NCBI RefSeq assembly: GCF_000385135.1
Contig: NZ_ARQM01000010.1
Coordinates: 620,001 to 684,000 of the forward strand
Length of the DNA stretch: 64,000 nucleotides
Direction: 5' to 3'
Source of the DNA: Promicromonospora sukumoe 327MFSha3.1
Lineage (GTDB): Bacteria > Actinomycetota > Actinomycetes > Actinomycetales > Cellulomonadaceae
Part shown: in pieces, positions 42,240 through 45,039 of the stretch
Layout of the letters: each line of letters starts with the position of its first letter
How positions within the stretch are numbered: position 1 is the stretch's first letter
Position numbers and translations under genes: made by a program
The notes under the pieces: generated by a model
The model's database searches: none
The model's input: only the letters and a program-made list of their open reading frames with translations
What the model was told of the DNA's origin: nothing

Positions 42240-43250
42240 ATGTCATCTGCACAGCCTCTGACATCAGCCGTGACGACAGCCGCTGCCTCTGTCGCTGCCT
42301 CTCTCACTACTTCCGAGCTGCCGGAGCCCGTCGTCGTCGAGCTGGATCTCGGCCCTGGTCCCGGGGGCGGTGACTTCCGAGGGCAGGGCGAGCGCGTCGC
42401 CACCTGGGTGCTGGAGCCGGCCGGCCGCGAACCGGCGGGCGACGTCGTGCTGTGCCACGGCACGCCCTGGTCCGCGCGGGTGTGGGCGCCCGTGGCCCGC
42501 GCCCTGAGCCAGGAGTACCGCGTCTTCCTGTGGGACATGCCCGGCTACGGCGCCTCGCCCAAGGGGCCCGACGTCGCCGTCGACCTCGTGACCCAGCGCC
42601 GGCGCCTGGCCGCGCTCCTGCGGCACTGGGCGGTCGACCGGTCGCTGGACCGGCCGCTGGACCGGCCGCACGTCGTGGCGCACGACATCGGGGGAGCGGT
42701 CGCCCTCGGCGCCCACCTCCTGGAGGACGCCGACGTCGCGAGCCTGTTCCTGCTCGACATCGTCACGCTGGACCCCTGGGGCTCGCCGTTCTTCCGCCTC
42801 GTGGCCGAGAACGAGGCCGTGTTCGCGGCCGTGCCCGGCCCGCTGCACGGCGCCCTGGTGCGCGAGTACATCGCCGGTGCCGCCAACCACGGGCTGCCGG
42901 ACGACGTCGTCGGCATGCTCGCCGAACCGTGGCTCGACGGCGTGGGCCAGGCGGCGTTCTACCACCAGATCGCGCAGCTCTCGCCCGAGCACACCGCGCC
43001 GGTCGTGCGCCGGCTCGGTGAGGTGCGCTGCCCGGTCCGCGTCGGCTGGGCCGACGCCGACCCGTGGATCCCGTTCGAGCAGGCCGCCCGGCTCCGCGAG
43101 GCGCTGCCCGGCGACCCCGAGGTGGTCGCCTTCCCCGGGCTCGGTCACCTCGTGCCCCTGGAGGACGACGCCGCGGTCGGCCAGGCGGTCCGCGAGTGGC
43201 TCGCCGCGTCCCGCGGCTCGGCGTCGGGGCCCGGGGCCCGCGTCGGGTGA
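42240..43250 (+). CDS. Alpha/beta hydrolase with aspartate nucleophile motif
   Basis: The 336-residue protein has the alpha/beta-hydrolase fold: oxyanion HGTPWSARVW, DMPGYGASPKG, nucleophile elbow HVVAHDIGGAVALG with Asp in place of Ser (as in haloalkane dehalogenases and epoxide hydrolases), acid PVRVGWADADPWIP and histidine FPGLGHLVPLEDD. The N terminus of about 35 residues is polar and unconserved. It is divergent from the heme oxygenase gene across the iron box, so iron control is possible. The substrate is unknown. Confidence 0.85.
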   Translation: MSSAQPLTSAVTTAAASVAASLTTSELPEPVVVELDLGPGPGGGDFRGQGERVATWVLEPAGREPAGDVVLCHGTPWSARVWAPVARALSQEYRVFLWDMPGYGASPKGPDVAVDLVTQRRRLAALLRHWAVDRSLDRPLDRPHVVAHDIGGAVALGAHLLEDADVASLFLLDIVTLDPWGSPFFRLVAENEAVFAAVPGPLHGALVREYIAGAANHGLPDDVVGMLAEPWLDGVGQAAFYHQIAQLSPEHTAPVVRRLGEVRCPVRVGWADADPWIPFEQAARLREALPGDPEVVAFPGLGHLVPLEDDAAVGQAVREWLAASRGSASGPGARVG

Positions 43251-43308
43251 TCGGCAGGACGTCAGGTGATCGGCAATCCGAGCTGCCGAACACCTGACGT
43301 TCTGCCGA
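43251..43308 (+). terminator. Terminator-like hairpin after alpha/beta hydrolase
   Basis: Arms of 18 bp at 43251-43268 and 43291-43308 (TCGGCAGGACGTCAGGTG type) pair with one mismatch, and a smaller TCGGCA/TGCCGA hairpin sits in the loop. It begins at the stop codon of the hydrolase gene and precedes the T-box leader. Confidence 0.65.
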
Positions 43309-43365
43309 CCACGCGGTCGGGCTCGTTTCCGCATCGTGGTGGCGCGGCGGGCGCCGTCGGGCATA

Positions 43366-43536
43366 GCGTGTGCGGTGGTGAGCGGGAGGCCTGACAAACC
43401 TCCGCCCGGTGCGCCGGGCAGCCGCCCACCCGCGCGTGCGGCGTACCGACGAGAGGCCGGGGCTTCCCGGCAAAGGAGTGGTGGCACCGCGACCTAGCCC
43501 CCGCCCGCTCCTCCAGGGCCTGCGCCTTCTGGAGGA
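43366..43536 (+). promoter_or_regulatory. Translational T-box riboswitch in aspS leader
   Basis: The conserved T-box GTGGCACCGCG is at 43481-43491. UGGC at 43482-43485 can pair with an uncharged tRNA acceptor end GCCA, so it selects a G73 discriminator, which tRNA-Asp and tRNA-Asn have. A short stem I is visible: GGTGG at 43374-43378 pairs with CCACC at 43426-43430, and GGAGG at 43385-43389 pairs with CCTCC at 43399-43403, with loop CCTGACAAA holding GAC, an Asp codon. TCCTCCAG at 43509-43516 pairs with CTGGAGGA at 43529-43536, which buries the Shine-Dalgarno. GGAG at 43475-43478 can instead pair with CTCC at 43508-43511, freeing it. This is the sequestrator/antisequestrator design known from actinobacterial ileS leaders. 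Confidence 0.8.
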
Positions 43537-43539
43537 ATG

Positions 43540-45039
43540 ATGAGACCACCTTTGCCGTCCCCTTTGTCGTCCCCGAGCACGTCCGCGTCCGAGGTCCGGG
43601 ACCTCGAGACCGGCGGCTCCGAGGCCGACGTTCTCGAAACTGGCGCCCACCAGTCCGGCGTCCACGAATCCGGCGCCGTCGAACCGGCCCGCGTGCTCGC
43701 CCGTGACCTGCCGGGCGTCCCGCCCGGGTCGAGGGTGCGGCTGCAGGGCTGGGTGCACCGGCGTCGCGAGCTCGCCACGGTGACGTTCCTGGTGCTGCGC
43801 GACCGCACCGGGCTCGCCCAGGTCGTGGTGCGCACCGGCGCCGGGCCCGCGACGTCGGACAAGGTGCCGAACGTGCAGCCGGACGGGCCAGCGGTGCCGG
43901 TCGTGCCGCCGGAGGAGACGACCGTCGAGGTGACCGGCACGGTCACCGCCAACCCGCAGGCGCCCGGCGGGGTCGAGGTGACCGGGGCGGACGGCGCGAA
44001 CCCGCTGATCACGCCCCTCACCGACCCGGCGGAGACCCCGCCGGTCGAGCTGTGGCGGCCCGCCCTGACGGCCGCGCTGCCCACGCTGCTCGACCACGCC
44101 GCCGTCGCCTGGCGGCATCCGGCGCAGAAGGCGCGCTGGGAGGTCGCGGCCGCGAGCCTGCGCGGGTTCCGCGCCACGTTGGACGCGGCGGGCTTCACCG
44201 AGGTCTGCACGCCCAAGCTGGTCGGCACGGCCACGGAGTCGGGGGCGAACGTGTTCCCCGTCGACTACTTCGGCCGGCCCGCCTACCTCGCGCAGTCGCC
44301 GCAGTTCTACAAGCAGCAGATGGTCGGCGTCTTCGAGCGGGTCTACGAGGTGGGTCCGGTGTTCCGGGCCGAGCCGCACGACACGGTGCGGCACCTCGCC
44401 GAGTACCGCTCGCTGGACGTCGAGCTCGGGTTCGTGCGCGACCACCGCGACGTGCTCGCCGTGCTCCGCGACGTGCTGGCCGGGATGGCGGACGCCGTCC
44501 GCGCGTCCGGGGCGGCCGACCGGCTCGGCGTGGAGGTGCCGCAGGTTCCGGACGAGTTCCCGGTGCTGCACTTCGCCGACGCCCTGGAGCTGGTCGGCGC
44601 GCCCGCCGACGAGCCCGACCTCGCGCCCGAGCACGAGCGGGCCCTGGGGGAGTGGGCGTTGGCCGAGCACGGGTCGGACTTCGTCGCCGTCGAGGGCTAC
44701 CCCATGGCCAAGCGGCCGTTCTACACGCACCCTGAACCCGCTCACGAGACGACGGGGGAGAGCCGGTGGAGCAACAGCTTCGACCTGCTGTTCCGCGGGC
44801 TGGAGCTGGTCACGGGCGGCCAGCGCCTGCACCGGTACGCCGACTACGTGGCGGCGATCGAGGCCCGCGGCGAGGACCCGGCGTCGTACGCGACCTACCT
44901 GGAGGCGTTCCGGCACGGGATGCCGCCCCACGGCGGGTTCGCGATCGGGCTGGAGCGCTGGGTGGCGCGGCTGGTGGGGGCGGCCAACGTCCGCGAGGTG
45001 ACACCGTTCCCGCGGGACCTGCACCGGCTCGTTCCGTAG
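43540..45039 (+). CDS. aspS: Archaeal-type (probably non-discriminating) aspartyl-tRNA synthetase
   Basis: The 499-residue class II synthetase has an OB-fold anticodon domain (RVRLQGWVHRRRELATVTFLVLRDRTGLAQVVV) and catalytic domain motifs: the TATESGANVFPVDYFGRPAYLAQSPQFYKQQ region, motif 2 FRAEPHDTVRHLAEYRSLDVELGF and motif 3 GGFAIGLERWVARL. This is the archaeal/AspRS2 type, not the ~600-residue bacterial type with a GAD insert. H73 in GWVH and P142 in QAPGG match the positions known to mark non-discriminating AspRS (D. radiodurans AspRS2), so it may also charge tRNA-Asn. The first ~50 residues are a low-complexity extension. ATG 43540 is preferred over 43537, which touches the Shine-Dalgarno. 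It is controlled by the T-box just upstream. Confidence 0.9.
   Translation: MRPPLPSPLSSPSTSASEVRDLETGGSEADVLETGAHQSGVHESGAVEPARVLARDLPGVPPGSRVRLQGWVHRRRELATVTFLVLRDRTGLAQVVVRTGAGPATSDKVPNVQPDGPAVPVVPPEETTVEVTGTVTANPQAPGGVEVTGADGANPLITPLTDPAETPPVELWRPALTAALPTLLDHAAVAWRHPAQKARWEVAAASLRGFRATLDAAGFTEVCTPKLVGTATESGANVFPVDYFGRPAYLAQSPQFYKQQMVGVFERVYEVGPVFRAEPHDTVRHLAEYRSLDVELGFVRDHRDVLAVLRDVLAGMADAVRASGAADRLGVEVPQVPDEFPVLHFADALELVGAPADEPDLAPEHERALGEWALAEHGSDFVAVEGYPMAKRPFYTHPEPAHETTGESRWSNSFDLLFRGLELVTGGQRLHRYADYVAAIEARGEDPASYATYLEAFRHGMPPHGGFAIGLERWVARLVGAANVREVTPFPRDLHRLVP

Follow-up and report, generated by a model that had tools for sequence, protein, structure and literature searches.

Upstream of a second aspartyl-tRNA synthetase (AspRS) gene of archaeal type, the window, meaning the whole 64,000-nucleotide stretch of DNA that was analysed, very probably carries a T-box that senses uncharged tRNA-Asp and controls the initiation of translation of that synthetase. 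Sequence could hardly make a stronger case for a tRNA-Asp T-box that stands before a surplus AspRS and acts at translation, the case being built on the anatomy of the leader, the covariation of its helices, its linkage to the gene, the match of both the specifier codon and G73, and the mutual exclusivity of its two predicted folds. We infer that the leader would bind the tRNA, sense its charging and thereby affect translation. The surprising part of the finding is the reduced architecture, as the form of leader found in the window seems to have lost parts thought necessary for T-box function. An earlier note on this DNA had placed a T-box upstream of an archaeal-type aspS here, and that claim has held up both in the anatomy, base for base, and in the comparative tests. 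That the gene is a second AspRS, and that the leader differs in architecture from the ileS type, are additions to the note.

The gene at 43540–45039 (on the plus strand, as are all leader features described below) encodes an AspRS of archaeal type that the genome carries in addition to a bacterial one. The product matches PRK05159 at 502.3 bits (cut-off 353), which upholds the archaeal-type assignment made earlier, and scores 318 bits against TIGR00458, below the cut-off of 368.4; among solved sequences, the closest is that of Thermus AspRS2 (1n9w), a non-discriminating enzyme. The first in-frame ATG lies at 43537, but 43540 is the more likely start codon, because ATGAGAC occurs there in 25 of 27 aligned leaders and 43537 is only one base from the Shine-Dalgarno (SD) sequence. 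A bacterial-type AspRS above cut-off was found in 147 of 150 family genomes, including this one (C10:1217280-1219010), and an asparaginyl-tRNA synthetase (AsnRS) above cut-off in none of the 150. The approximately 1 kb scanned upstream of the housekeeping aspS of this genome holds no such T-box. A second AspRS in Actinomycetales without AsnRS has been noted before (PMC4206432), in a paper whose sections on these genes give neither a role nor a mode of regulation for this order, and the leaders described here suggest how this second enzyme is used. A long, near-perfect inverted repeat (43244–43315) lies in the gap that separates the leader from the hydrolase gene upstream of it; microRNA models match the repeat as a plain hairpin, and it is perhaps the terminator of the hydrolase gene.

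The T-box string GTGGCACCGCG is read directly at 43481–43491, where it had been claimed. It falls within an antisequestrator (43475–43511) composed of a 7-bp helix A1 (GGAGTGG/CCGCTCC, 43475–43481/43505–43511), a 7-nt bulge UGGCACC (43482–43488) and a second helix A2 (GCG 43489–43491/CGC 43502–43504), with the 3′ strand of A2 joining that of A1 without a gap. Helix, 7-nt UGGNACC-type bulge and helix, with a gapless 3′ strand, is the standard T-box geometry. The GGAG at 43475–43478, previously proposed as a competing partner, proved to be part of A1. The first four bases of the bulge, UGGC (43482–43485), are the complement of the tRNA 3′ end GCCA; the single tRNA-Asp gene found in the host has anticodon GUC and G73, and the earlier argument from UGGC/GCCA to a tRNA with G73 came through the comparative tests. 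A chance occurrence of the T-box string was considered and rejected, since only two of the ten GGTGGYACMGCG sites in the genome have T-box surroundings, namely this leader and that of ileS.

Upper stem I (43385–43403) is a hairpin closed by GGAGG 43385–43389 and CCTCC 43399–43403, whose 9-nt apical loop (43390–43398) contains GAC, the Asp codon, at 43393–43395, as had been read from the sequence before. A side hairpin, GCCCGG/CCGGGC (43404–43419), follows at the stem I junction and is missing from four leaders (L019, L021, L141 and L142). Reading this hairpin as an S-turn stem II was rejected, as it sits within the likely junction of the base helix P1 and is missing in L019 and L021. P1 itself (5′ strand 43374–43384, 3′ strand 43422–43430) is likely but not certain in the window form: the 12 bases preceding the hairpin pair with the 12 bases preceding CGCGCG at a mean duplex energy of -11.2, against -9.5 (sd 0.3) for re-dealt partners, none of 2000 being as low across 33 distinct leaders, while among three leaders fetched later L194 alone passed (4/500 shuffles) and L193 (246/500) and L202 (114/500) did not. 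If formed, P1 would turn the GCCCGG/CCGGGC hairpin into a side arm of stem I at the former place of the K-turn. A predicted -10 element, TAGCGT, lies at 43364–43369; of the 52 short leaders that were parsed, 49 show the TAnnnT pattern, placed 19–25 nt before UGAC in 47 cases, against 0/52 for the adjacent upstream windows (52 of 53 leaders were parsed, L008 being the exception, and L141 and L142 were anchored wrongly). This placement suggests that the transcript starts near the foot of stem I, at the 5′ end of P1. Downstream of P1, a conserved 25-nt element, CGCGCGTGCGGCGTACCGACGAGAG (43431–43455), is followed by stem III (43456–43471). The element is probably a remodelled stem IIA/B together with the purines preceding stem III.

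The covariation check that had been proposed for orthologous leaders revealed both-side changes in stem I, the side hairpin, stem III and A1. The family alignment comprised 25 of 28 leaders, with two duplicates (L018 and L028) and one leader with an internal duplication (L027) left out; standard pairs filled 99.4% of its cells, and both sides had changed at 9 of 32 pairs, a figure reached by 0/500 shuffles and compared with 0–2 for slid partners. Ten leaders of other families, which score 94 to 152 bits with model R1, paired in 96.6% of cells and showed both-side changes at 10 of 32 pairs (1/500 shuffles; slid partners 1–4), though this alignment was fitted to R1, a model built from family leaders, and so leans toward it. 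By helix, both-side changes affect two of five pairs of upper stem I (helix 1) in each alignment, three of six pairs of the side hairpin (helix 2) in the family and all six in other families, and three of five pairs of stem III (helix 4) in the family and one of five in other families. In A1, an A-U pair is swapped to U-A in 7 of 25 family leaders. Neither A2, which is invariant, nor the hairpin within the 25-nt element changes on both sides in either alignment, so that covariation neither supports nor contradicts them. The single-sequence fold of the window leader is not unusual (z -1.47), 16 of 200 shuffles being equally good. In L027, a tandem duplication within the leader (1301–1491) includes part of a IIA-like element and stem III.

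The leader and the gene travel together. The gene is present in 28 of 150 family genomes, distributed over 7 of 25 genera, and the leader precedes all 28 orthologues found. R1 matches 29 of the 150 genomes: besides the 28 that carry AspRS2, it picks out G014, a genome lacking any AspRS2 match, with a remnant leader (L190, 1501–1633) that has a UGACGA stem I loop, a IIA-like element and stem III and no T-box; L190 is probably a fossil left after loss of the gene. At E<=1e-60, 23 of the 296 genomes in a class sample have an AspRS2-like gene. Their close relatives (67–100% identity) have the T-box in 17 of 17 cases, that of the broken G156 gene lying in L133, and divergent AspRS genes (36–39% identity) have it in one of six, identified by pattern, with no T-box string in the other five. 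The R1 model matches 15 of these 296 genomes, each time before AspRS2 except in L129 (bacterial AspRS), L135 (SerRS) and L140 (divergent AspRS). An order sample of 396 genomes contains AspRS2 in 17 genomes with 18 genes, all 18 preceded by a T-box; four of these belong to the earlier samples as well. Among 80 fetched loci, from which 17 and 12 leaders were read (L056 being common to both sets), the nine closest (58–71% identity) all carry the T-box and belong to Microbacterium, Terrabacter, Kineosporia, Flexivirga, a Nocardioidaceae MAG, two Nonomuraea, a Chloroflexi genome and Phytohabitans; it is also present in the Anaerolineae MAG L101 (49% identity). None was seen before L107, L112, L114, L120 and L124, of which the last four are more distant actinobacterial loci. 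The absence of the T-box from most divergent genes restricts the link to this kind of AspRS.

Individual loci add detail to this distribution. In G536, two copies of AspRS2 (L195 and L206) each have their own GAC T-box, with one in-frame stop marked in the first copy, and in G156:C895 (L133/L156) an AspRS2 split by approximately 3 kb lies downstream of a long GAC T-box. In G277, from another family of the order, a T-box of the window type stands before a bacterial-type AspRS (L129, 1501–1669, minus strand), its SD lying, as judged by eye, within a different and longer hairpin; the gene is another one and the amino acid the same, which counts in favour of reading these elements as tRNA-Asp T-boxes.

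The output domain points to translation. As had been claimed, an 8-bp hairpin (43509–43536) forms between TCCTCCAG at 43509–43516 and CTGGAGGA at 43529–43536 and covers the SD sequence GGAGGA (43531–43536). This sequestrator and A1 have three bases in common (43509–43511), and the predicted ON and OFF folds therefore exclude each other; across the family, 28 of 28 leaders have a sequestrator that spans the SD and takes in 2–4 bases of the 3′ strand of A1. When the folds were forced, the ON state ranged from -22.9 to -31.3 and the OFF state from -28.1 to -36.7 kcal/mol, with OFF the stabler in 26 of 28 leaders. In the window leader and L002, ON is the stabler by 1.6 kcal/mol (-29.7 vs. -28.1), so that the resting state is not clear from energies. 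No U-run separates the competing hairpin from the start codon, which follows within a few bases, in any of the 28 family leaders. With the SD inside a hairpin and no U-run, control at translation is the natural reading, and the earlier proposal to that effect agrees with the SD sequestration predicted throughout the family.

The window form belongs to a series of leaders before one orthologous gene. Long canonical stem I structures precede this gene in Nonomuraea, Phytohabitans and Chloroflexota; the distal stem I motif is found in 17 of 17 long forms, 0 of 15 short forms with a K-turn and 1 of 38 of the window form, and two long forms measure 205 and 230 nt, although their starting points are not strictly equal. 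The short K-turn forms (15 loci) include some with a IIA/B remnant (125–127 nt, two measured) and the Terrabacter type with neither stem II nor IIA/B (107–109 nt, five measured). One of them, L148, keeps the S-turn stem at 162 nt, and L150, its sister in the tree, retains the long stem I, which makes L148 look like the product of an internal deletion that turned an internal specifier loop into an apical one. The window form measures 138 nt and is without distal stem I. The 25-nt element appears as a loose pattern in all 38 of its leaders, a group that rests on this element and includes duplicate leaders and L129, and in its exact form CGCGCGNNCGGCGNACCGACGAGAG in 25 of 38, counted from a list read by eye; the loose pattern also matched two of the 15 K-turn leaders (L195 and L206), at unrelated upstream places. 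The GA..GA motif of the K-turn is found in 0 of 38 window-form leaders, whereas 15 of 15 short K-turn leaders before this gene have it, a clean split that is only descriptive, since leaders were assigned to the group by the element itself and the K-turn motif was drawn up with examples already in view. The S-turn motif occurs in 0 of 38 leaders of the window form and was found in the host's own ileS leader and in L148, but it is a weak motif that misses 15 of 17 long forms.

In a protein tree, 32 of 33 rows with a GAC T-box fall in one clade (support 100), the 33rd (L162) lying in a divergent clade; a Chloroflexi gene with a long leader branches first, and the window form makes up one clade of 14 rows (support 99). 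The tree covers 73 of 127 proteins, chosen by hand, was built by a quick method with a midpoint root, and does not include L101 and L133. Long and short labels came from automatic sorting, with L046 and L152 relabelled by hand beforehand, and require five and three changes on the tree, so that shortening of the leader may have occurred more than once. The window form probably descends from a canonical long T-box that stood before this gene.

Which tRNA is sensed was left between tRNA-Asp and tRNA-Asn in the earlier note, and tRNA-Asn likewise has G73. The specifier is GAC in all 68 leaders read for this AspRS kind (54 + 14 loci, or possibly 67, as the leaders of L048 and L200 are identical and possibly from one organism), and in the long forms it stands in the canonical place (GAA-GAC-N-C); the bulge of the relative L150 is UGGU, unlike UGGC. 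A sensor of tRNA-Asn would suit an enzyme that resembles a non-discriminating AspRS feeding Asn-tRNA formation in genomes where AsnRS was not found above cut-off: His74 of the product lines up with a His in both Thermus 1n9w and 1wyd, and with the Trp of 3nel. Related archaeal-type AspRS genes of Firmicutes also use Asn codons, with AAC at the specifier place in 8 of 12 leaders examined (L058, L060-L063, L067, L069 and L070), the codon thus differing between related synthetases. This same observation speaks for the soundness of the codon frame, as does L135 (G374), where a SerRS gene is preceded by a canonical long T-box (near base 1566, reverse complement) with the specifier UCC, likely a tRNA-Ser T-box in the class. 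With a sound frame and GAC, never AAC or AAU, in 68 leaders that include long forms with a canonical specifier loop, Asp is much better supported than Asn; an AAC-like string at the edge of the window loop is not conserved. The tRNA-Asp half of the earlier claim is accordingly favoured, and sensing of tRNA-Asn is considered highly improbable.

Two further readings accept a T-box origin and differ in what the leader does. Attenuation of transcription is the mode of most annotated T-boxes (PMC7583486), and a hairpin with a U-run closes the leaders of several Firmicutes relatives, but a competing hairpin that holds the SD, with the start codon a few bases on and no U-run, makes this mode extremely unlikely for the 28 family leaders. 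A decaying T-box that no longer binds tRNA, its remaining hairpins serving as a simple translational attenuator, is very unlikely. It draws on the missing distal stem I and K-turn motifs, on the S-turn signature that was not found (a weak motif) and on the remnant L190 in a genome without the gene; with no recognisable K-turn or S-turn signature of the kind seen in known short T-boxes, tRNA binding cannot be taken for granted. Decay is, however, hard to square with helices that still covary and with the retention, in several families, of both the 25-nt element and the bases predicted to touch the tRNA (GAC, the following purine in the short forms read, and UGGC).

In the preferred reading, a tRNA-Asp T-box acting at translation, the anticodon GUC would pair with the GAC that stem I presents in its apical loop. 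The GCCA end of an uncharged tRNA would then pair with the UGGC of the bulge, stabilise the antisequestrator and free the SD, whereas with charged tRNA the sequestrator hairpin would form and the synthetase would not be made. A back-up AspRS would in this way be produced when the housekeeping AspRS cannot keep tRNA-Asp charged, a back-up role that is suggested by the redundancy of the gene and its patchy occurrence. We lean slightly toward a stronger proposal, that the window form represents a new structural class, one able to sense tRNA-Asp with no distal stem I platform, no K-turn and no S-turn stem II, in which the conserved 25-nt element took over the holding of the codon–anticodon pair as the K-turn was lost. 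It would stand as one result of a series in which the leaders of a single gene were naturally reduced, from long forms of approximately 205–230 nt to forms of 107–127 nt that kept the K-turn and lost stem II and to the 138-nt form that lost the K-turn and has the new element. Having K-turn and K-turn-less versions on one orthologous gene, these leaders offer natural test cases.

The Rfam T-box model RF00230 finds no match in the window leader, either at its gathering cut-off or at E<=5. It gives the ileS T-box of the same genome 19.3 bits against a cut-off of 93, and it was rejected as the deciding test because it misses the host's own ileS T-box too. The cut-off is a detection threshold and not a structural definition. 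Of ten named relatives, only L101 clears it, and at this cut-off RF00230 overlooks a set of actinobacterial T-boxes.

Translational T-boxes in Actinobacteria have been described for ileS (PMC1262725), and a T-box of the Corynebacterium his operon that acts by transcription attenuation is cited in PMC9413887. The TBDB database scanned Actinobacteria with a class II model and counts GAC among its specifiers (PMC7778990). No account of an Asp T-box in Actinobacteria was found in the literature searched, and Table 1 of TBDB is not split by class or phylum and may hold some of these leaders. The earlier suggestion of a new specificity for the translational actinobacterial class thus fits the literature searched and falls short of proof, as TBDB may hold such leaders. 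Taken singly, T-boxes, GAC specifiers and action at the level of translation are all known; it is their apparent combination, with this architecture, that was not found there. A truncated stem I makes stem II essential according to one review, which leaves open whether a T-box can function without a K-turn (PMC7583486).

The closest known systems are the translational ileS T-boxes of Nocardia farcinica and Mycobacterium tuberculosis, with which the window leader shares SD sequestration, a short stem I, a codon in the apical loop and a UGGN antisequestrator. Those T-boxes have AUC/UGGU, a K-turn in stem I and a stem II with an S-turn (PMC10651847, PMC7583486), whereas the leader described here has GAC/UGGC, neither the K-turn motif nor the S-turn signature (weak motif) in any of the 38 leaders, its own 25-nt element and a length of approximately 138 rather than 174 nt. 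An AUC/UGGU T-box before ileS is present in the same genome (L042, G000:C12, ~380603, minus strand). Canonical long T-boxes of the RF00230 type share the antiterminator core and the codon rule, and the orthologous long GAC leaders L051 and L101 score 72.8 and 104 bits with that model; in comparison, stem I here is cut down and the output would be translation. The glyQS T-boxes also lack stem II, as do the Terrabacter-type leaders, which have no IIA/B either, but in glyQS the long stem I is retained and holds the tRNA by its elbow (PMC7583486), unlike in the 107–109 nt Terrabacter-type leaders. A surplus AspRS under T-box control has a parallel in Clostridium acetobutylicum (PMC2494555), and PMC4206432 cites a work of 2012 whose title points to the same T-box-controlled AspRS genes; that organism belongs to the Firmicutes, in which most of the related leaders examined read AAC.
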